DNA of 7,840 nucleotides from an uncultured Rivibacter sp. (GTDB lineage: Bacteria; Pseudomonadota; Gammaproteobacteria; Burkholderiales; Burkholderiaceae). Where the stretch lies: NCBI GenBank assembly GCA_946481025.1, contig CAMLNA010000170.1, positions 1 through 7,840 on the forward strand. Direction: 5' to 3'. Under the pieces are notes generated by a model, which saw only the letters and a list, made by a program, of their open reading frames with translations, made no database searches and was not told the origin of the DNA. Made by a program: the position numbers and the translations under genes. Positions 1 through 7,840 of this stretch are shown here, in pieces; the first letter of the stretch is position 1, and each line of letters starts with the position of its first letter.

Positions 1-73
1 GTGGTGGGGGTGGGGGTGGGGGCGGCGGAGGGACCTGATAACGAACGTAGCCACCACCATCTGCGATCAACAT
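1..73 (-). CDS. Proline-rich protein of unknown function, N-terminal fragment
   Basis: The gene starts at ATG 73 and leaves the window at the left edge after 24 full codons. The visible peptide is MLIADGGGYVRYQV followed by ten prolines. The start is well supported: AGGAGG at 79-84 lies 5 bases upstream, the best Shine-Dalgarno site in the window, and the gene begins 16 bases after the sctU stop, so it is probably in the same operon. The first codons use GGT, GTT, CGT, TAT and CCT, unlike the GC-ending codons of the neighbours. The proline run is encoded partly by a CCCCCA hexamer repeat. I do not recognise the family. Position and low-complexity N-terminus would fit a secreted or accessory T3SS protein, but this is inference. 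An ATG at 60 in another frame is a weaker alternative because it lacks a ribosome site. Confidence 0.6.
   Translation of the reverse strand, partial: MLIADGGGYVRYQVPPPPPPPPPP
3..30 (-). repeat. CCCCCA hexamer repeat encoding a proline run
   Basis: The minus strand carries three CCCCCA units next to CCGCCG, all read as proline codons in the gene starting at 73. The plus strand correspondingly has three runs of five G separated by single T, then GGCGG. The tract touches the left edge and may continue beyond it. Confidence 0.7.
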
Positions 74-78
74 GAGAA

Positions 79-84
79 CCTCCT
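79..84 (-). promoter_or_regulatory. Strong Shine-Dalgarno site of the proline-rich gene
   Basis: The minus strand reads AGGAGG, then five bases, then ATG at 73. This is a full match to the anti-Shine-Dalgarno core. It decides the start of the last gene and suggests high translation, compared with the weak sites of most of the core apparatus genes. Confidence 0.75.
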
Positions 85-89
85 GGCGT

Positions 90-1124
90 TCAATGGCTTT
101 CGCCCTGCGCCCAGCGCAGCAGCTTGGCCACGGGTGCGTAGAGCGAGCGCGGTATCGCCTGGTCCTGCGGCACCTCTTCGTAGAGGCGCTCGGCCAGGCC
201 GGGCTCGAATTCGGTGGGGATCAGCGCCTCGCTCGAGATGCGCCGGATCTGGGCGGCGATGTCGCCCTCGCCTCGCGCGATGACCCGCGGCAGGTCGTTT
301 TCGCCCAGGTATTGCAGCGCCACCGCGGTGCGGGCCGAATGGATCACCGCCGAGGCCATGCGCACGCGGTCGGCCAGCGTGAAATACACCGCCTCGAAGT
401 GGGCCGAGCGGCGCCGCGAGCGATTGATCGGGTCGCCTTCGACCTCCTTGTGCTCCTGGCGGAGGTCTTCGATCGACATGCGCTGCTGCTTCATGAACTC
501 GTAGTGCTCGTGCGCATAGTCGAGCAGCGCCATCACCACGTAGATCACGACCGCCCAGCCGAACATGGTGAGCACCATCTGCGCTCCCGCCGAAAGCATG
601 GCCGCGGGCCGGGCGTACCCGAGCTTCATCGCCGGGTCCACGTAGGCGCGCACCACCACGTACATGAGCGCCGCCAGCAGCGTGGTCTTGAGCAGCATCT
701 TCAGCAGGTTGACGAGGCTGCGCGTCGAGAAAATGCGCTTGAGCCCCTCGCCCGGATTCATGCGGTTCACGTCCGGCTTGATGCGTTCCCATGCGGCCAC
801 GCCGCCCACCTGGAACAGCGAGCCCAGGATGCCCGCCACGGCCACCACGACCATGATGGGCAGGGTGGCCCACAGCAGCGTCTCGGTGGTGTGCAGCAGC
901 AGCTCGCCGAAGCGGTCGTCGGGCCGGGTGAGCAGCGTGGTGCTGGTGGCATGCAGCCACAGCTCCCGCAGCAGCGTGAAGACGAGCCCGCCCCCCAGCC
1001 ACAGCATGATCACGCCGACCGCGAACACCGTGGTCGAGGCGACGTCGGAGCTGAACACGACCTCGCCCTTCTTGCGCGCGTCGCGCAGGCGCTTGGGGGT
1101 CGGGTCCTGGTTCTTTTCTGCCAT
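90..1124 (-). CDS. sctU: T3SS export switch protein SctU (YscU/HrcU/FlhB family), NPTH motif absent
   Basis: 344 residues, a normal family length. SctU sits at the base of the export gate in the inner membrane, and its cytoplasmic domain helps switch substrates from rod and needle to translocators and effectors. The N-terminus has the family signature (PTPKRLRDARKKGEV, 8-22). Four hydrophobic segments lie near 31-52, 80-105, 137-160 and 178-202, with the conserved linker EVEGDP at 227-232. The C-terminal domain aligns well, including TAVALQY at 266-272 and the final AKLLRW at 333-338. The oddity is at the autocleavage site: where the family has NPTH, this protein has HSAR (262-265, bases 330-341), so self-cleavage after Asn is not expected. 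ATG 1124 was chosen, 2 bases after the sctT stop, because a longer in-frame upstream extension lacks family similarity and would overlap sctT heavily. Confidence 0.95.
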   Translation of the reverse strand: MAEKNQDPTPKRLRDARKKGEVVFSSDVASTTVFAVGVIMLWLGGGLVFTLLRELWLHATSTTLLTRPDDRFGELLLHTTETLLWATLPIMVVVAVAGILGSLFQVGGVAAWERIKPDVNRMNPGEGLKRIFSTRSLVNLLKMLLKTTLLAALMYVVVRAYVDPAMKLGYARPAAMLSAGAQMVLTMFGWAVVIYVVMALLDYAHEHYEFMKQQRMSIEDLRQEHKEVEGDPINRSRRRSAHFEAVYFTLADRVRMASAVIHSARTAVALQYLGENDLPRVIARGEGDIAAQIRRISSEALIPTEFEPGLAERLYEEVPQDQAIPRSLYAPVAKLLRWAQGESH

Positions 1125-1126
1125 GG

Positions 1127-1909
1127 CTACAAGGTGGCCCGCAGGAAGTCGAGCACGCCGTTCTCGGGCCGCAGGAACTGCTGCAGCGACTCGTAGACGA
1201 AAAACAGCAGCAGCACCATCATCAACGTGGCCAGCAGGCTCTTGAGCGGCTGCGAGAACACGAACACGTTGAGCTGCGGTGCCACGCGGCTGATGAGGCC
1301 CATGCCGAGTTCCACCAGCATGAGCACGAACACCACCGGCGCGGCGAGCTTCACGATCCACAGGAAGAGCGTGTCGCCCTGGCGGACGGCGAACTGCTCC
1401 AGCACCGCCCCCACGCTCGGGAAGAACGAGCCCACCGGCCAGATGCGGTAGGAGTCGACCACCACGCCGAGCATCGCCAGCAGGCCGCCGGCCGAGACGA
1501 ACAGCGTGATGACCATCCAGCCGAGGAATTCGCCGGTCGGGCCGTTCTCGTGGCCGGCCACCGGGTCGAAGAACGACGCGTTGCTGGAGCCGGTCTGGAA
1601 GTCGATGAGGTCGCCCACGCTCTGGATGGCCCAGATGAAGATGCCGAACCCCAGGCCCAGCAGCAGCCCGATGAAGGCTTCCTTGCTCGCGATGAGCACC
1701 CAGGTGCCGATGTTCACCTCGGGCAGGTTGCCGGCCACCGGCGACATGAAGATCGCCAGCATGAGCAGCAGGCCGTTGCGCACGATGCCGGTGATCATGC
1801 TGCCCGACAGGAACGGCACCACGGCGAAGATGGCGAACAGCCGCGGCAGCGTGAGCACCACGGCCGAGAACATGCGTTCCAGCGCTTCGAGTTCGATGGT
1901 GGTTTCCAC
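1127..1909 (-). CDS. sctT: T3SS export gate protein SctT (YscT/HrcT/FliR family)
   Basis: 260 residues, normal for the family. SctT is an inner-membrane protein that assembles with SctR and SctS into the helical export gate through which unfolded substrates pass. Hydrophobic segments are visible near 14-34, 44-59, 69-95, 127-151, 180-206 and 223-241. The family motif SRVAPQLNVFVFSQPLK (207-223; compare the N-F-P-K pattern of FliR/YscT) is intact. The start is GTG at 1909, with a GGGGG run about 10 bases upstream; no ATG lies between it and the sctO stop. The gene follows sctO by 17 bases and precedes sctU by 2. sctR and sctS, its obligate partners, are not in the window and must be encoded elsewhere. 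The direct O-to-T junction is as in hrpB7-hrcT of Hrp2 clusters. Confidence 0.95.
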   Translation of the reverse strand: METTIELEALERMFSAVVLTLPRLFAIFAVVPFLSGSMITGIVRNGLLLMLAIFMSPVAGNLPEVNIGTWVLIASKEAFIGLLLGLGFGIFIWAIQSVGDLIDFQTGSSNASFFDPVAGHENGPTGEFLGWMVITLFVSAGGLLAMLGVVVDSYRIWPVGSFFPSVGAVLEQFAVRQGDTLFLWIVKLAAPVVFVLMLVELGMGLISRVAPQLNVFVFSQPLKSLLATLMMVLLLFFVYESLQQFLRPENGVLDFLRATL

Positions 1910-1926
1910 GGCGGCAGCCCCCGGCG

Positions 1927-2412
1927 CTACGAAAACCGCCTTGACGACCAGGTCACCGACGCGACTTCCTCGGCCACGTCTTCCTGCCGGGCCTCGTGCA
2001 GGCGTCGCTGCTGCTGCAGCCTGCGCTGCTGCATCTGCTGGGCCTTTTCCACCTCGCCCGCCGCGGCGCGCATGCGCTGCCGGCTTTCCTGCAACACCTG
2101 CTCGCGCTGCTGGTGCAGCCCTTGCGCCTGCGCAACGCCGGTGGCCGCCGTGGCGATGTGCCCGTCGAGCGCACCGCTCCAGGCGCTGGCCTGGCGCAGC
2201 TGCGCCACGCTGCAGGCGCCGCCCGACAAGGCCCCGGTGGTGGCCTGCCAGTGCGCGGCCTTAGCATCGATCTGCTGCTGCAGCTGGGCATGTGCCTGCT
2301 GCAGCAACGCCAGGCTTTGGTCGGCCGCGGCACGGTCGCGCGCCACCGCCTCCATGGCGGTGCGCTTCTGCCGTTCGCGCACTTCGATCAGGAGCTTCCA
2401 GTCCACGGCCAT
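1927..2412 (-). CDS. sctO: T3SS ATPase stalk protein SctO (YscO/HrpB7/FliJ-like)
   Basis: 161 residues, mostly predicted alpha-helical coiled coil and rich in Gln, Ala and Arg. Two long helical blocks lie at about 5-55 and 90-150, separated by a Gly/Ser-containing stretch (TGALSGGACS, 59-68). SctO proteins diverge strongly in sequence. The call rests on size, the coiled-coil hairpin pattern and position directly after the ATPase gene sctN, where yscO, hrpB7 and fliJ are found. The family member inserts into the centre of the ATPase hexamer and contacts the export gate protein SctV. The gene starts at ATG 2412, 3 bases after the sctN stop, with a GGGGG-containing ribosome site inside the end of sctN, so translation is probably coupled. 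No separate sctP (needle-length ruler) follows. Confidence 0.85.
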   Translation of the reverse strand: MAVDWKLLIEVRERQKRTAMEAVARDRAAADQSLALLQQAHAQLQQQIDAKAAHWQATTGALSGGACSVAQLRQASAWSGALDGHIATAATGVAQAQGLHQQREQVLQESRQRMRAAAGEVEKAQQMQQRRLQQQRRLHEARQEDVAEEVASVTWSSRRFS

Positions 2413-2415
2413 CGC

Positions 2416-3747
2416 TCAACCCCCGAAACCCTGCAACTGCGCCACGGTCCTGTCGAACGGCTGCGCAGACTCGGGCGCCTGGCGCAGGAAGTCCAGCATC
2501 GCCGGACGCAGTCCGATGGCCCGGTCGGCCTGCGCGTCGCTGCCGGCGCGGTATTCGCCGATCTGCACCAGCAGCTCCATCTCCTGGAACTTGGCCAGGA
2601 GGCTGCGGAAGGCGGCCGCCGCGTCGCGATGCGAGCGCGACGTCACCAGCGGCATCACACGGCTGATGCTGGCCAGCACGTCGATGGCCGGGTAGTGGTT
2701 GCCGGAAGCCAGCTTGCGCGACAGCACGATGTGCCCGTCGAGGATGGAGCGCACTTCCTCGGCGATCGGGTCGTTCTCCTCGTCGCCTTCGGTCAGCACC
2801 GAGTAGATGGCCGTGATGGAGCCGGTCTTGCCCTGCCCCGCCCGCTCGAGCAGTTGCGGCAGCATCGAGAAGATCGACGGCGGATAGCTGCGCCGCGTGG
2901 GCGGCTCGCCGCTGGCCAGCCCGATCTCGCGCTGTGCCCGCGCAAACCGGGTGAGCGAATCCACCAGCAGCAGGACCTTCTTGCCCTGGTCGCGGAAGTG
3001 CTCCGCGATGGTGGTGGCCACGTAGGCCGACTTGATGCGTTCCATCGGCGGACGATCGGAGGTGGACACCACCAGCACCGACTTCGCCAGCCCCTGCGGC
3101 CCCAGGCTGTGCTCGATGAATTCCTTCACCTCGCGGCCGCGCTCGCCGATGAGCGCGATCACGTTCACGTCGGCCTGCGAGCCGCGCGCCAGCATGCCCA
3201 GCAGCGTGCTCTTGCCCACGCCCGGTGGTGAGAAGACACCCACCCGCTGGCCTTCGCCCAGGGTGAGCAGGCCGTCGACGGCGCGGATGCCGGTGGCCAG
3301 GGGCGCGTCGATCATGCGGCGCGCCAGCGGGCTCACCGGGTCGCGATGCACCGGCATCTGCGCCAGGGTCGAGAGCGGCCCGCGCTCGTCGATGGGTTCG
3401 CCCAGGGCGTTGAGCACCCGGCCCAACAGCCCCACGCCCACCGGGCATGCATGGCCGCGGCCTGTGGGCACCACCTCGGTCAGCGCCGAGATGCCGGTGG
3501 TGGGCCCGAGCGGCGTGAGGATGGCGGTGTTGTGGTGGAAGCCCACCACTTCGGCCAGCAGCGGCGGCTCGCCGGGCGTGACCAGCTCGCAGAGTTCACC
3601 CACGTGGGCCTGGATGCCGGAGGCGTCGATCAGCATGCCGACCGCCTTGCTCACCCGGCCGCGCATGCCCACCGGCGTGATCCGTCCGAAGGCCTGCTCC
3701 AGGTCGGCAACGATGTTGAGCGCGGCGTCGGAGACAGGCTGGTTCAT
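2416..3747 (-). CDS. sctN: T3SS ATPase SctN (YscN/HrcN/FliI family)
   Basis: 443 residues, full length. This is the cytoplasmic hexameric ATPase that releases chaperones and unfolds substrates at the export gate. Visible motifs are Walker A SPPGVGKST (173-181), GERGREV (201-207), Walker B KVLLLVDS (257-264), the F1-type signature PAIDVLASIS (353-362) and an Arg in LSRKLA (342-347) at the expected arginine-finger region. The N-terminal beta-barrel domain spans about 20-95, and a helical C-terminal domain follows from about 370. No key residue is missing. ATG 3747 overlaps the sctL stop in an ATGA junction, which couples translation of the stator and the ATPase. FliI is the main alternative by homology, but neighbours sctJ, sctK and sctD identify an injectisome rather than a flagellum. 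Confidence 0.98.
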   Translation of the reverse strand: MNQPVSDAALNIVADLEQAFGRITPVGMRGRVSKAVGMLIDASGIQAHVGELCELVTPGEPPLLAEVVGFHHNTAILTPLGPTTGISALTEVVPTGRGHACPVGVGLLGRVLNALGEPIDERGPLSTLAQMPVHRDPVSPLARRMIDAPLATGIRAVDGLLTLGEGQRVGVFSPPGVGKSTLLGMLARGSQADVNVIALIGERGREVKEFIEHSLGPQGLAKSVLVVSTSDRPPMERIKSAYVATTIAEHFRDQGKKVLLLVDSLTRFARAQREIGLASGEPPTRRSYPPSIFSMLPQLLERAGQGKTGSITAIYSVLTEGDEENDPIAEEVRSILDGHIVLSRKLASGNHYPAIDVLASISRVMPLVTSRSHRDAAAAFRSLLAKFQEMELLVQIGEYRAGSDAQADRAIGLRPAMLDFLRQAPESAQPFDRTVAQLQGFGG

Positions 3748-4367
3748 GCGGACTCCAATCCCGAGCGCTGAACGGCGCGGCGGAAGGCCTCGAGCTGTGC
3801 GTCGATGCCCAGTTCGAGGGTGCCTGAAGCGGTGTGCACCACGCAGCTGCCCTCGGCCAGCGTCGCATCGGGTTGCACGGCCACGTTCATCTGCCAGTTG
3901 GCCTCGTCGCGCAGGCGGGCCAGCACCTGCTGCATGGCCTGCTCCTGCGCGGGCGCCACCCGCACGGTGATGAAAGGCTCGGTGCGCACCAGCGTGTCGA
4001 CGCGGCGCAGCGCGGCCTCGAACAGCTTCGCGGGTTCGGCCTCGGCGATGAACTGGCCGACCGCCCGCACGACGATCTGCGCCATCGATGCCCGCAGCGC
4101 ATGCAGCTGCCGCTCGGAGGCCAGGGTTTCGGACACGAGGCGCTGCGCGTATTCGACGCGCGCACGCTCGAGGCCTTCTTCGTAGCCCTGCCGGCGGCTC
4201 GCCTCGGCCTGCTGCGCCGCCTGCTGCACGATGCGCCGGGCCTCGCCCCGCGCGGTCTCGACCACCGCGGTGGCGTCGAGCAGCGCCGCGTACTCGGCTT
4301 CCTTGAGCACCTTGCGCTCGGACAGCAGCTGCAGGTTCTCGGTGGTGATCAGAAAAGCCAGTCCCAT
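3744..4367 (-). CDS. sctL: T3SS ATPase stator SctL (YscL/HrpB5/FliH family)
   Basis: 207 residues. SctL dimers link the ATPase SctN to SctK and SctQ in the sorting platform and restrain ATPase activity. The central part (about 15-110) is a charged, Gln/Ala/Glu-rich coiled coil. The C-terminal domain carries the FliH-like pattern VQPDATLAEGSCVV...GIDAQL (164-192). The open frame continues far upstream, but ATG 4367 was chosen: the protein then begins MGLAFLITTENLQLL, resembles family N-termini, and overlaps sctK by 19 bases instead of by hundreds. The ribosome site is weak (GAAAGA), so coupling to sctK is likely. It ends in an ATGA overlap with sctN. Confidence 0.92.
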   Translation of the reverse strand: MGLAFLITTENLQLLSERKVLKEAEYAALLDATAVVETARGEARRIVQQAAQQAEASRRQGYEEGLERARVEYAQRLVSETLASERQLHALRASMAQIVVRAVGQFIAEAEPAKLFEAALRRVDTLVRTEPFITVRVAPAQEQAMQQVLARLRDEANWQMNVAVQPDATLAEGSCVVHTASGTLELGIDAQLEAFRRAVQRSGLESA

Positions 4368-5038
4368 TGCGGCAATCTTTCGGGAACGATGCACGACAAC
4401 ACCAGCTCCCCGAGCTGGCGCTGCTGGCGCGACTCGAGCGCCGGCACGCGGTAGGTGGACATGCGGCGCGGCAGCTTGTGCTGCACCCGCTGCAGGACGG
4501 ATTCGCCTTCGGCGGCCATGAGGCCCAGCAACAGGCGGTAGCCGCGGGTGGCGACCACGTGGCCGGCGCCCACCGGCCGGTCCTTCAGGACCTTGGCATC
4601 CATGCGGATCTCGGTCAGCTCGGGCACGCGCTCCAGCACGAAATCGAGAGCGTCGTCGCCGAGCCTGCGGGCCTGGCGGCGCAGCTGTGCGCTCAAGGCG
4701 CCGCGCTGCCGCAGCAGCGGCAGGTGGGCGCACAAGCCGCAGTACAGGGCCAGCCGCCGCAGCGAGCCGGCATCCAGCAAGGCCAGGCGCTTGCCGCGCG
4801 AGTCGAAATTGAAGTCGCCTGGCGCGCCGCTGGCCGAAGAACGCATCAGCAGCTGCGACAGCACCGCGCGCCCGCGCTGGCCCAGCCTCGCCGGCACACG
4901 GTGGCGAACCGGCCAGTCGGCCGGCAGCCAGCTCGGGTGCAGCTCGGCCTCCGGGTGCAGGTTGAAATGCGTCACCAGCCGCACCAGGTCCATCGGGCCT
5001 GGTCCGCTGGCGAGAGGCGCTGCTGCCGTGGACGCCAT
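4349..5038 (-). CDS. sctK: T3SS sorting-platform protein SctK (YscK/HrpB4 family)
   Basis: 229 residues. SctK connects the cytoplasmic side of the SctD ring to the SctQ-SctL sorting platform. The best family evidence is FNLHPEAELHPSWLP (25-39), matching the Phe-Asn...Pro...Leu-His-x-Ser-Trp pattern of YscK. The position between sctJ and sctL also matches. The rest is an Arg/Leu-rich mostly helical protein with no membrane segment. The start is uncertain: ATG 5038 gives a low-complexity Ala/Pro lead of 15 residues, while ATG 4993 (MDLVRL) is closer to family N-termini and has AGG nearby. I kept the longer form because it lies 18 bases after the sctJ stop. The end overlaps sctL by 19 bases. Confidence 0.88.
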   Translation of the reverse strand: MASTAAAPLASGPGPMDLVRLVTHFNLHPEAELHPSWLPADWPVRHRVPARLGQRGRAVLSQLLMRSSASGAPGDFNFDSRGKRLALLDAGSLRRLALYCGLCAHLPLLRQRGALSAQLRRQARRLGDDALDFVLERVPELTEIRMDAKVLKDRPVGAGHVVATRGYRLLLGLMAAEGESVLQRVQHKLPRRMSTYRVPALESRQQRQLGELVLSCIVPERLPQWDWLF

Positions 5039-5056
5039 GGCGTGCGGCCCGCCGTG

Positions 5057-5836
5057 TCAGCGTCGCAGCACCTGGCGCCGTGCCCAGGTGCGCCAATCCA
5101 GCCCCTGCCGGCGCAGCAGCGTGGGCAGCACCATGAGGCACACCGCGGCCAGCAGCAGCAGCCCCAGCAGCACCGCCGCCGCACCGGGCGACAGCATGCC
5201 GAGGATCATCTGACCGCCGTTGCGCCCCTCCGCCTCGCCGTTGCCTGCCGTGGCGCGGCGCGCCTCGAACAGCGACAGCGACACCTGGTCGTGCGTGAGC
5301 CCTTCGATGCTGTGCGCCACCATGTCCTTCACCGCCGGCGCCAGCAGGCGCAGGTCCACGTCGGGCCGGTGCTTGATGAACACCGCCGCCGACGACGGGC
5401 GGATGCGATCGCTCAGCGGGTCGTTGGCCGGGATGACGACGTGCACCCGCGCCGCGACCACGCCGTCGACGGTGCGCAGCGTCTGAGACAGCTCCTGCGA
5501 CACCGCATAGATGTAGCGCATGCGCTCCTCGGAGGGCGTGGACACCAGGCCCTGCTTCTGGAACACGTCGCCCATGCTGGCATAGCGATCGTGCGGCAGG
5601 CCCTGGGCCCGCAGCACGTCGAGCGCGGCGCCGAGCCGGGCTTCGTCCACCTGGACCTGCCAGTTGCTGCCTTCGATGCGTTCCTTCGCGGCATCGATGC
5701 CTTCGGCCGACAGCGCCGCGACGATCTCGTTGGCCTCCTGTTCGTTGAGGCCGGAATACAGGCCCACCTTGCAGCCCGCCAGCGCAAGCGCCAGCGACAG
5801 TGCAAAGAGCGGCTTCAGCCAGCTGTGTGCGTTCAT
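5057..5836 (-). CDS. sctJ: T3SS inner-membrane ring lipoprotein SctJ (YscJ/HrcJ/FliF-like)
   Basis: 259 residues. SctJ forms the inner periplasmic ring of the basal body together with SctD. The N-terminus is a lipoprotein signal peptide with lipobox LAGC (Cys22). The YscJ domain follows, with characteristic LYSGLNEQEANEI (26-38), a GLPHDRYASMGDVF block around residues 80-93, and PSEERMRYIYAVSQELSQTL near 101-120. A membrane anchor (ILGMLSPGAAAVLLGLLLL and beyond) lies near 212-240, ending in a basic cytoplasmic tail. I chose ATG 5836 because GAGG lies 7 bases upstream and the signal peptide then has normal length. A GTG at 5848 overlapping the sctI stop (GTGA) would add four residues and is a real alternative. 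sctK follows after 18 bases. Confidence 0.96.
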   Translation of the reverse strand: MNAHSWLKPLFALSLALALAGCKVGLYSGLNEQEANEIVAALSAEGIDAAKERIEGSNWQVQVDEARLGAALDVLRAQGLPHDRYASMGDVFQKQGLVSTPSEERMRYIYAVSQELSQTLRTVDGVVAARVHVVIPANDPLSDRIRPSSAAVFIKHRPDVDLRLLAPAVKDMVAHSIEGLTHDQVSLSLFEARRATAGNGEAEGRNGGQMILGMLSPGAAAVLLGLLLLAAVCLMVLPTLLRRQGLDWRTWARRQVLRR

Positions 5837-5844
5837 GAGGGGCC

Positions 5845-6258
5845 TCACTGCTGGTTCTTCAGCAAGGTGCCGAACAGGCCGGTCGCCGCGCTGGCGAGGC
5901 CGGTGGAGATGTGCAACTTGGCGAACATGGTGTGCGCCTCCATCGAATGGTCGGTCAGCGCGAACATGGTCTTGATCGGGTCCGACAGGTCCATCGACTC
6001 GAGCATGCTGCGGCGCATCTCGTCATACGAGCGCACGTTGCCCGACAGCTGCGCGGCGAGCGCCTTGGCGGCGTCGCCCAGCGTGCTGGGGCCGCCCGCC
6101 ACCGAAGGCGGCGGCACCTGCATGCCCTGCATCATGTTGGCGAACAGCTTGGTGTCGGCCGGGTCGAAACGCTGCGAAGCCGCTGCGGACGGCGGCTGCT
6201 GTTGCGTCGCTGAGATCTCTGCCGGCTTGGCTGCGGCCAGTGCAACGGGGTCGGTCAT
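5845..6258 (-). CDS. sctI: T3SS inner rod protein SctI (YscI/HrpB2 family)
   Basis: 137 residues. SctI proteins form the short inner rod that joins the export gate and basal body to the needle, and are themselves early substrates. The N-terminal half is low-complexity (Ala, Gln, Pro), as expected for a secreted subunit. The conserved part is the C-terminal amphipathic helix from about 95 to the end, finishing in GTLLKNQQ, which matches the family ending. Size is close to HrpB2. Position directly before sctJ agrees with yscI-yscJ and hrpB2-hrcJ. ATG 6258 has a good ribosome site (GAGGTG about 5 bases upstream). The stop lies 8 bases before the chosen sctJ start. Three copies of a 10-base direct repeat lie just upstream. 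Confidence 0.88.
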   Translation of the reverse strand: MTDPVALAAAKPAEISATQQQPPSAAASQRFDPADTKLFANMMQGMQVPPPSVAGGPSTLGDAAKALAAQLSGNVRSYDEMRRSMLESMDLSDPIKTMFALTDHSMEAHTMFAKLHISTGLASAATGLFGTLLKNQQ

Positions 6259-6268
6259 GGTTCACCTC

Positions 6269-6298
6269 TTCACTGCGCTTCACTGCACTTCACTTCTT
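6269..6298 (-). repeat. Three-copy 10-base direct repeat upstream of sctI
   Basis: The plus strand carries CTTCACTGCG, CTTCACTGCA and CTTCACTTCT in direct succession. The first two differ at one base and the third is decayed in its last three bases. The array lies in the leader of sctI, between its ribosome site and the upstream hairpin. A period of 10 bases would put the copies on one face of the helix, but no known binding motif is recognised. Confidence 0.55.
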
Positions 6299-6302
6299 TG
6301 CG

Positions 6303-6335
6303 AAAAGGCGGCGGGCGCCCAGGCCGGGCGCCGCC
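6303..6335 (-). terminator. Terminator- or attenuator-like hairpin after the small gene
   Basis: Read on the minus strand, a GC-only stem formed by GGCGGC and GCCGCC plus an inner GCCC/GGGC stem (about 10 pairs, one 4-base bulge, 5-base loop) is followed directly by TTTT. It begins 10 bases after the stop of the 67-residue gene and ends 44 bases before sctI. This is the form of an intrinsic terminator with a short U tract, so partial read-through into sctI is likely. Such an element would make the upstream small protein more abundant than the apparatus proteins. Confidence 0.55.
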
Positions 6336-6345
6336 GCTGCACGCG

Positions 6346-6549
6346 TCAGGACGACTTGGCGGCCTGGCGGATGTCGTTGCCGGTGGACTTGGCCACTTCG
6401 CCGCCGGCGGCGGCGGCACCGTTCACCGTGTGGGCGGTGGACGCGGCGCCCTGGATGCTGGTGGACGCAGCCATGCTGGCGGCCATCAGGCGGGCGTTGT
6501 CGGCCGCGGCCTTGTTCATTTGCTCGATGGATGTGTCGACGCTTGCCAT
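6346..6549 (-). CDS. Small Ala-rich protein, candidate T3SS needle/pilin subunit (SctF position)
   Basis: 67 residues, about one third alanine, without Trp, Tyr, Phe, Cys or Pro, and with no signal peptide. Two helix-forming stretches (about 5-35 and 47-64) are joined by a Thr/Asn/Gly-rich turn near 40-50, the helix-turn-helix plan of needle subunits. It lies between sctD and sctI, where sctF sits in Ysc-type clusters. A strong ribosome site (AGGAG, 7 bases before ATG 6549) and the downstream terminator-like hairpin suggest abundant production, as a filament subunit needs. Against the call: the Asn-Pro turn usual in YscF/PrgI needles is absent, and the C-terminus (IRQAAKSS) is polar instead of hydrophobic. 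It may instead be closer to Hrp pilins, which diverge greatly, or be another small secreted or chaperone-like protein. Confidence 0.5.
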   Translation of the reverse strand: MASVDTSIEQMNKAAADNARLMAASMAASTSIQGAASTAHTVNGAAAAGGEVAKSTGNDIRQAAKSS

Positions 6550-6700
6550 GTGTTTCTCCTAGCGATGTTGGTTGGGTAAGTGCCTGAGGGTCTCCCTGCC
6601 GGCCCTGCGCGAGCCGCCGGGGAATTCCACGCGGCGGATGCACCGCCGCATGAAATGGGGGGAGCAGGCCGGCGCGGACGTGCTGTGCTGCTGCATGCCG
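6550..6700 (-). other. Intergenic region between sctD and the small gene
   Basis: This stretch of about 150 bases has no supported gene. It contains a hairpin (6628-6652) and the ribosome site of the small gene near its left end. I looked on the minus strand for a sigma70-type promoter, a PIP box (TTCG pair), a HrpL box and a sigma54 site and saw no convincing match. It remains the most likely place for an internal promoter or mRNA processing site in the cluster. Confidence 0.5.
6628..6652 (-). other. Strong RNA hairpin downstream of sctD
   Basis: The minus strand reads CATGCGGCGG, loop TGCAT, CCGCCGCGTG. This gives a 10-pair stem with one G-U pair and a 5-base loop. It lies about 49 bases past the sctD stop. 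No T tract follows, so it is not a standard intrinsic terminator. It may stabilise the 3' end of sctD mRNA or mark a processing point. GC-rich DNA makes chance hairpins common, hence the modest confidence. Confidence 0.4.
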
Positions 6701-7840
6701 TCACCTCGCCTGCTGCTGTTGTTGTTGCTGCTGCTGAACCTGTTGCTGCTGCGCCTGCTTTGTGTCGGGCGCGCCGCTCACCACCAGGCCGTCGGGGTCG
6801 ATGCGCTTGAGCTCGGCGCCCGAGCGCAGCACCGAGCCTTCGTAGTAGCGGCTGCCGTTGGACAGCTGGATGTGCCGAAGCCCGTTGCCGTCGTCGGTGA
6901 TGCTCACCATGCGGCCCGGCAGCACGCTCTGCCAGGCGCCCCATTGCGCCTGCAGGTCGGTGGTGCGTTCGCCTTCGGGCTTGGGCCGGTAGGCGACCTT
7001 GTCCGACACCAGCACGGCGGGGTGCAGGTCCTCGCCCAGGCGGCGGATCTTCTGCCGCACGGATTCGTCTTCGACCGTGCCCGACAGGACGAGCCGTCCC
7101 TGGCCCGCATAGGTGACGGCCACGCCGGGGTCGCTCACATAGCGGCGGGCGTGCTCGACCATTTCTTCGGCGGCGTGCACGTTGACGCTGACCTTGCGGC
7201 CGAACGGCGCCATGGCCTGCTGCAACGCCTGGCGCCGCTGGCGAGACTCCACGTAACCCTTCACCGAGAACTGCCCGCCCGGTGCGGCCAGCACCTCGAC
7301 TTCGGGGTACGGAGCCAGCGCCTTCTCCACCTCGGCCAGGTTCACGCTGCCGAAGCCGTTGCCCGGCGGGCTGCCCGCGCCCACCGCCACCGCCGCCAGG
7401 CCGGCCAGGGCCAGCGCCGCCAGCGCGCCGCCGGCCCAGTAGCGGTACCGCGGCGTCGGAGCGGCAGGTTGCGGCGCCTGCGCCTCGGCGCCCGGCAGCA
7501 CGCTTTCCGGCCCGGCGAACATGCGGTCGTCGGGCTCGGCGGCGGCGGCATAGGTGCGGTCGAGCTGGAAGTCGATGCTGCCCAGCGAGACGATGTCGCC
7601 GGCCACCACGCTCTTGCGCTGCTGCTTCATCTCCTCGCCGTTGAGCCGCGCCGACGCGGTGCCGACCTTCTGCATCGTGACGACGAGTTCCCCCACGGTG
7701 AACACGAGGTGGCGCGGCAGCACGTCGCCGCCGGGCAGCATCACTTCGCATTCGCCGCCGGAGCCCAGCACGTTGGCGCCGGGCTTGAGCGCGATGGTGC
7801 GGCCCTTCACCGCGCCGCTCAGGAAGCGCAGGCACCAGCC
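6701..7840 (-). CDS. sctD: T3SS inner-membrane ring protein SctD (YscD/HrcD family), 5' partial
   Basis: 379 codons are visible and the frame stays open to the right edge, so the true start is outside the window. A GTG at 7810 is in frame, but the ten codons before it (GWCLRFLSGA) continue the usual start of the FHA-like domain (compare W-x-x-R-F-x-x-G in YscD), so it is internal. The cytoplasmic FHA-like domain covers about 1-95. A Pro/Ala linker and one membrane helix (about 135-156) follow, then periplasmic BON/ring-building modules (about 165-350). The protein ends in a Gln-rich tail of 13 Gln in two runs. SctD forms the outer part of the inner-membrane double ring around SctJ, binds the sorting platform through SctK, and reaches the secretin SctC on the periplasmic side. 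Confidence 0.9.
   Translation of the reverse strand, partial: GWCLRFLSGAVKGRTIALKPGANVLGSGGECEVMLPGGDVLPRHLVFTVGELVVTMQKVGTASARLNGEEMKQQRKSVVAGDIVSLGSIDFQLDRTYAAAAEPDDRMFAGPESVLPGAEAQAPQPAAPTPRYRYWAGGALAALALAGLAAVAVGAGSPPGNGFGSVNLAEVEKALAPYPEVEVLAAPGGQFSVKGYVESRQRRQALQQAMAPFGRKVSVNVHAAEEMVEHARRYVSDPGVAVTYAGQGRLVLSGTVEDESVRQKIRRLGEDLHPAVLVSDKVAYRPKPEGERTTDLQAQWGAWQSVLPGRMVSITDDGNGLRHIQLSNGSRYYEGSVLRSGAELKRIDPDGLVVSGAPDTKQAQQQQVQQQQQQQQQAR
6710..6751 (-). repeat. CAG/CAA trinucleotide tract encoding the SctD poly-Gln tail
   Basis: Minus-strand codons CAG and CAA encode four Gln, one Val, then nine Gln, just before the final Ala-Arg and the stop. The mix of CAG and CAA makes the tract imperfect, but it is still prone to change in length by slippage. 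It lies in the periplasmic C-terminal end of SctD, outside the recognised ring-building domains. Confidence 0.85.

Follow-up and report, generated by a model that had tools for sequence, protein, structure and literature searches.

The autocleaving SctU/FlhB proteins of type III secretion systems (T3SS), such as YscU, EscU, SpaS, HrcU, and FlhB, carry an Asn-Pro dipeptide within an NPTH motif, and one published account calls this motif "conserved in all FlhB homologs" (PMC3052322, available text). According to the available accounts of these systems, cleavage frees the PTH loop to turn, and SctP and substrates are then offered a surface; it is still debated whether switching requires the cut as such or just a conformation (PMC3040844; PMC10333785; available excerpts). 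The closest described systems to the locus studied here are the Burkholderia cepacia complex Injectisome (BCI), known from Burkholderia and with Variovorax named as carriers (Wallner, 2021; PMC8565462), and the T3SS clusters of B. cenocepacia (PMC12580581). NPTH is mentioned in the available text of neither paper, and no report of a naturally NPTH-free SctU clade was found in the open-licence literature that we searched. We analyzed a stretch of 7,840 nucleotides from an uncultured Rivibacter sp. of the Burkholderiaceae (contig CAMLNA010000170.1, positions 1 to 7,840; hereafter, the window), which carries part of an injectisome operon whose SctU, unlike the autocleaving proteins, is without Asn-Pro.

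The sctU reading frame (positions 90–1124, minus strand) is unbroken and its translation is a 344-amino-acid SctU/FlhB-family product. The PF01312 match (293.6 bits against a cut-off of 24.4, E 2.6e-87, residues 3–338) indicates a full-length family member, and the best-scoring NCBIfam model is TIGR01404, the SctU equivalog, at 283.2 bits; this score is under the NCBI annotation cut-off of 358, which marks the protein as a divergent SctU. The gene adjoins sctT in the operon, two bases apart. As an earlier note on this DNA had read, residues 262–265 are HSAR instead of NPTH (codons CAT TCG GCC CGC, positions 330–341, minus strand), and the Asn-Pro dipeptide is not present in the hairpin. The same note aligned the protein residue by residue with cleaving homologues, and this alignment could not be sustained. 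In the AlphaFold2 (AF2) model, the hairpin strands are residues 259–262 and 266–271. The cleavage hairpin (residues 259–271; positions 312–350, minus strand) spans 13 residues, one fewer than the 14 of Asn-Pro proteins; the alignment used has another single-residue deletion after Tyr272, and HMMER alignments to solved FlhB have a gap there too. In the best structural alignments, 92 residues of the model span 94 in EscU N262D (3bzs) and in a CT091 mutant (3t7y), which agrees with the shortened hairpin. A sequencing error at HSAR, raised earlier as a possible refutation, is ruled out by the independent assembly of the nearest genome compared (G001, locus L005), in which SctU is 98% identical and the four motif residues are the same.

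To estimate how far the loss extends, we used three homologue searches (the best 120 of 556, 171, and 130 matches, respectively), and all counts that follow are therefore of samples. The 315 proteins gathered comprised 204 of the BCI branch (query included), 99 with Asn-Pro, eight of other lineages without it, one whose frame is disrupted at the site (P0178), and three in which the site is not covered (P0269–P0271); the last four count toward neither of the two large groups. The 204 were assigned to the branch from search rank, plus seven proteins chosen for their loop sequence, an assignment backed by subset trees rather than by a single tree of all proteins. Among the matches listed in the first search, none of the 120 best homologues had Asn-Pro at the site; with L005, this rules out a private mutation of one strain. 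The second search, with the BCI protein of genome G286 as the query, yielded 91 further proteins among the matches listed: 76 of the HSAR/YSPR kind, many under Burkholderia and Paraburkholderia names, one DGAR, one disrupted, and 13 with NPTH, which were all distant (at most 38% identity to the query). Overall, Asn-Pro was found in 0/204 sampled branch proteins, and the hairpin spanned 13 residues in 204/204 of them vs 14 in 99/99 Asn-Pro proteins. In 97 dereplicated branch proteins, position 262 is His, Tyr, or Cys in 92, position 263 is Ser (84) or Ala (13) and nothing else, position 264 takes 11 kinds of residue, and position 265 is Arg in 71; no strict replacement motif for NPTH was found. 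A protein of Ralstonia wenshanensis (P0278), with FSAR at the site, also clusters with the branch.

Trees were built on dereplicated rows. In a 78-row tree with the motif columns removed, the 45 branch rows came out as a single clade (100/99) from within the NPTH rows, which shows a single origin for the loss of Asn-Pro in the BCI branch, where it is a fixed, ancestral trait. In an 84-row tree, the loss of Asn-Pro needs four changes, three of them forced by well-supported branches, and at least two smaller SctU lineages lost the motif separately. One of these (P0203, P0213–P0216, P0260, and P0266) has an acidic residue (Asp or Glu) in place of the Asn, with the hairpin at full length; P0213, P0216, and P0266 were placed in it by sequence only and P0260 is perhaps an event of its own. 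P0268 is a further SctU outside the BCI branch that is without Asn-Pro, likewise acidic at the Asn position. When P0204 was used as the query for sister loci of the cleaving kind, just two BCI copies were returned from 399 genomes; in 369 genomes of the class, a search for the P0203 lineage gave G001 and one match of 31%.

The locus belongs to an injectisome of the BCI type (Wallner, 2021; PMC8565462). The window SctU clusters with that of Burkholderia BCI (100/99, in a tree of SctU alone, the published tree having used other proteins) and groups with Burkholderia and Variovorax proteins, and the core genes are common to both. Across the window or G001, we found the thirteen BCI core genes C, D, J, K, L, N, O, Q, R, S, T, U, and V, twelve by profiles over cut-off and sctO from weak matches and position; sctQ, sctR, sctS, sctV, and sctC were seen in G001, outside the window. 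Further likenesses are a putative large element near the operon, an sctF that is not recognizable, and, in some loci (L018), a LuxR-type gene close by. The layout differs from the published one, in which the large element parts sctR and sctQ from the rest (PMC8565462, available text), as in G001 the giant open frame follows sctU, and sctR and sctQ lie beside sctV. The scope of the observation exceeds that of the earlier note, since the loss of NPTH is a trait of an entire injectisome type.

The sctU gene is under strong purifying selection. Between the window and L005, the ratio of nonsynonymous to synonymous substitution rates (dN/dS) is 0.04 in both the membrane part and the C-terminal domain. 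The corresponding ranges for comparisons with 13 Variovorax copies are 0.28–0.46 and 0.14–0.34, values which are rough owing to composition and distance. The alternative that this SctU is degenerate is unsupported, and its description as a lineage-specific variant is borne out by the clade-wide trait, the selection, and the core genes, whose intactness in the loci agrees with the earlier argument against simple decay. At 48 positions, 32 dereplicated cleaving proteins are at least 80% conserved; of these positions, the 97 dereplicated branch proteins preserve 36 and have exchanged nine (139, 235, 259, 262–265, 284, and 312). Compared with YscU, EscU, SpaS, HrcU, and FlhB, the BCI proteins have the shorter hairpin, the extra deletion after Tyr272, Arg for Lys284, and no Arg in the LARxLY motif, described as close to the PTH loop (PMC3040844, available text); by alignment, the window has Glu312 there (positions 189–191, minus strand), where 31 of the 32 cleaving proteins have Arg. 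As the exchanges lie mostly at the cleavage loop and its domain, they resemble a rebuilt surface and not general decay, and decay of sctU was rejected on the strength of dN/dS and the loci.

In 16 BCI genomes (G001, G315, G286, and 13 Variovorax), PF01312 detected 34 full-length copies, 16 of the BCI type and 18 others, besides 10 short C-terminal copies left uncounted. All 18 others, the second SctU/FlhB copies for which a search had been proposed, retain Asn-Pro (16 NPTH, one NPMH, one NPTR), which rules out a drift of every SctU/FlhB in these genomes; in G405, the BCI SctU is the sole copy. No SctP/FliK or HpaP gene was matched by profile search in any of the 16 BCI loci, where an unrecognized SctP is possible. 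FliK/SctP (PF02120) was over cut-off in 11 of the 16 genomes and in five there was none; the matches were on contigs other than that of the BCI sctU, except in G410 (∼420 kb away) and G315 (∼800 kb away). HpaP was found in two genomes (G001 and G408), each time with a second, NPTH-bearing injectisome. The earlier remark that sctP is missing holds in so far as none is recognizable here; the place where it was expected was wrong, as the HpaP gene of the second injectisome of G001 sits between sctV and sctQ, and the adjacency of sctO and sctT is ruled out as a sign of a lost sctP. HrpJ/SctW and SseC were over cut-off in none of the 16 genomes, with weaker matches in four and one, in searches that included no T3SS positive-control genome. 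According to the available text of section 4.1 of PMC12580581, the main clusters of B. cenocepacia are likewise without SctP, SctW, and translocator genes.

Very large open reading frames (ORFs) are linked to the system. An ORF of at least 2,889 amino acids lies directly after sctU in 10 of 14 loci (L005–L018), several running off the locus; in L007, the ORF there is 1,249 amino acids, and L015, L016, and L018 have no giant after sctU and a DUF4781 open frame of more than 3,300 amino acids ∼17 kb upstream. The seven giants scanned are mosaics, with DUF4781 in four (L005/L020, L006, L010, and L055), LysM over cut-off in one (L008), and a glutamate-cyclase-like domain in two (L012 and L055); that of L010 has a Scabin-like match below cut-off and that of L011 no domain found. 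The D-glutamate-cyclase-like PF14336 lies inside the giants at L012 11100–20999 (plus strand) and L055 3202–13401 (minus strand), with E 7e-70 and 1e-102. DUF4781 is over cut-off in 8 of the 16 BCI genomes. Among 399 Burkholderiales genomes, DUF4781 occurs in three and a BCI-type SctU (44–98% identity, every other match being at most 36%) in the same three, with a chance probability of ∼1e-7; this is partly one locus counted twice, as the two genes are neighbors in two of the three genomes. In G286, the DUF4781 giant (∼4,116 amino acids; L076 1194–13544) and the BCI SctU are ∼579 kb apart, and a transglycosylase gene and a 589-amino-acid gene, with no giant, lie between sctR and sctU (L057 16481–19098). 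A large element near the BCI operon, of more than 10 kb with LysM, has already been published (PMC8565462), as has, like here, a long DUF4781-domain protein beside the B. cenocepacia clusters (PMC12580581; available text of both). The giants are the likeliest late or sole cargo of the system, their secretion being a prediction, and would be candidate cargo where the 2021 study of this injectisome had found no effectors (PMC8565462, available text).

That all sampled members of the branch are without a self-cut site suggests that this secretion needle no longer uses the common switch from early to late export. SctU probably stays uncut, because the cyclizing Asn and the Pro are both gone. The C-terminal domain would retain its fold as a single chain and still act as gate and export platform, and the flipped PTH surface, read by SctP and early substrates in cleaving systems, would not be presented. 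The switch that depends on cleavage and SctP may have been lost along with the ruler and recognizable translocators, export then being switch-free or ordered otherwise (by expression, chaperones, or SctV), and modular giant proteins may be exported as late or sole cargo. In a machine without ruler and classical translocators, losing the cut would cost little, and we accordingly think that SctU in this branch is a gate and platform that remains uncut and has no SctP-type switch. We give a probability of about 0.7 to this reading, in which the BCI injectisome has an uncut SctU, has dropped the switch that depends on cleavage and ruler, and has the giants as its likeliest cargo. The laboratory mutants EscU N262A, YscU N263A, HrcU N264A, and SpaS N to A are, like the BCI SctU, expected to be one piece; they belong to machines that have both rulers and translocators, and their secretion is partly lost, whereas the BCI state is natural, old, and selected.

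Several observations weigh against this reading. In the available accounts, preventing the cut cripples the machine in most tested systems: uncut mutants of Salmonella pathogenicity island 1 (SPI-1) export rod and ruler and not translocon or effectors, those of SPI-2 lose translocon and effector secretion, those of enteropathogenic E. coli deliver effectors at a low level, and those of two Yersinia species other than Y. enterocolitica lose both effectors and translocators strongly; in Y. enterocolitica, effectors are secreted and translocators are not. SctP is very variable and could go unrecognized. The HrpJ/SctW and SseC searches also missed the HpaP-bearing injectisomes of G001 and G408 which, with the lack of a control, makes those absences weak evidence. 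Three of the 14 loci have no giant beside sctU and a fourth has just the short frame, and Ser263 might conceivably allow a cut of a different type. Separately, a B. vietnamiensis sctV mutant has a phenotype, so the BCI machine does something; the SctU of that strain is outside our comparison. T3SS genes are enriched in poplar-root Variovorax, their type not being stated (PMC12911387, available text).

A more far-reaching version, which we offer tentatively and which may well claim too much, is that SctU autocleavage, ruler, gatekeeper, and classical translocators were shed together, and that this switchless injectisome exports rod, needle, and very large modular proteins (open frames of ∼2,500–4,200 amino acids; DUF4781, LysM, or glutamate-cyclase-like) without substrate hierarchy. 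A natural, selected, clade-wide exception makes the question of cut or conformation approachable without crippled mutants, and, because a recognizable ruler and translocators are absent to match, a concrete hypothesis can be framed for the purpose of the cut.

Conceivably, the switch is kept through conformation, the shorter hairpin and changed LARxLY surface mimicking the cleaved form while an unrecognized SctP-like protein or a giant still measures or signals. The exchanged sites at and around the loop fit this rather unlikely alternative, as does position 263, which, with just Ser or Ala in 97/97, shows that the loop is not wholly free; in Xanthomonas HrcU, a change of the LARxLY Tyr (Y318D) makes late secretion independent of HpaC although little of the protein is cleaved (PMC3040844, available text). 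Nevertheless, no SctP-like gene was recognized in the loci and no partner is known. It is far less probable that SctU is still cut by other chemistry, either by a host protease acting on the loop or by Ser263 attacking the preceding bond, for which an N-to-O acyl shift would be the mechanism. Ser263 is prevalent in the branch, and SsaU N262A and YscU N263A give aberrant alternative cuts (PMC6168863, available text), but the Ala263 of 13/97 proteins, the variable positions 262 and 264, and the shortened hairpin speak against such a cut. Least probable of all is that the system is a relic, in decay or without secretion, or that control through SctU has ceased to matter in it, as the lack of a known effector and the role other than secretion allowed by Wallner (2021; PMC8565462, available text) are outweighed by the dN/dS of 0.04, intact core genes, clade-wide persistence, and the published mutant phenotype.

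The neighbors of sctU in the window are all on the same (minus) strand: sctT (1127–1909; PF01311 and TIGR01401 over cut-off), an sctO-like gene resembling HrpB7/YscO/FliJ (1927–2412; below-cut-off matches, E 0.001–0.015, and position), the ATPase gene sctN (2416–3747; profile matches), sctL (3744–4373; TIGR02499 over cut-off), sctK (4349–5038; PF06578), sctJ (5057–5848; PF01514 and TIGR02544), an sctI-like, HrpB2-like gene (5845–6258; position, and PF09487 at 24.5 bits, which narrowly misses its cut-off of 26.5), and sctD, cut by the window end (6701–7840; PF16697 and TIGR02500 over cut-off). The needle gene sctF could not be identified in BCI (Wallner, 2021; PMC8565462), and an orphan sctF elsewhere in the genome is proposed for B. 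cenocepacia (PMC12580581; available text of both). Between sctD and sctI, an Ala-rich ORF of 67 amino acids (6346–6549, minus strand) is a candidate sctF by position and conservation, with no profile over cut-off; shared motifs identify it in 12 of the 13 loci from Methylibium and Variovorax, L013 being the exception, and similarly placed ORFs in L056 and L058 have 18% identity. Its AF2 model is one long helix with a predicted TM-score of 0.40, which speaks neither for nor against a needle subunit. At the other end of the window, 16 bases past the sctU stop, an ORF preceded by AGGAGG starts and runs off the window (1–73, minus strand); it begins with MLIADGGGYVRYQV followed by a run of prolines, a start unlike that of the G001 giant.
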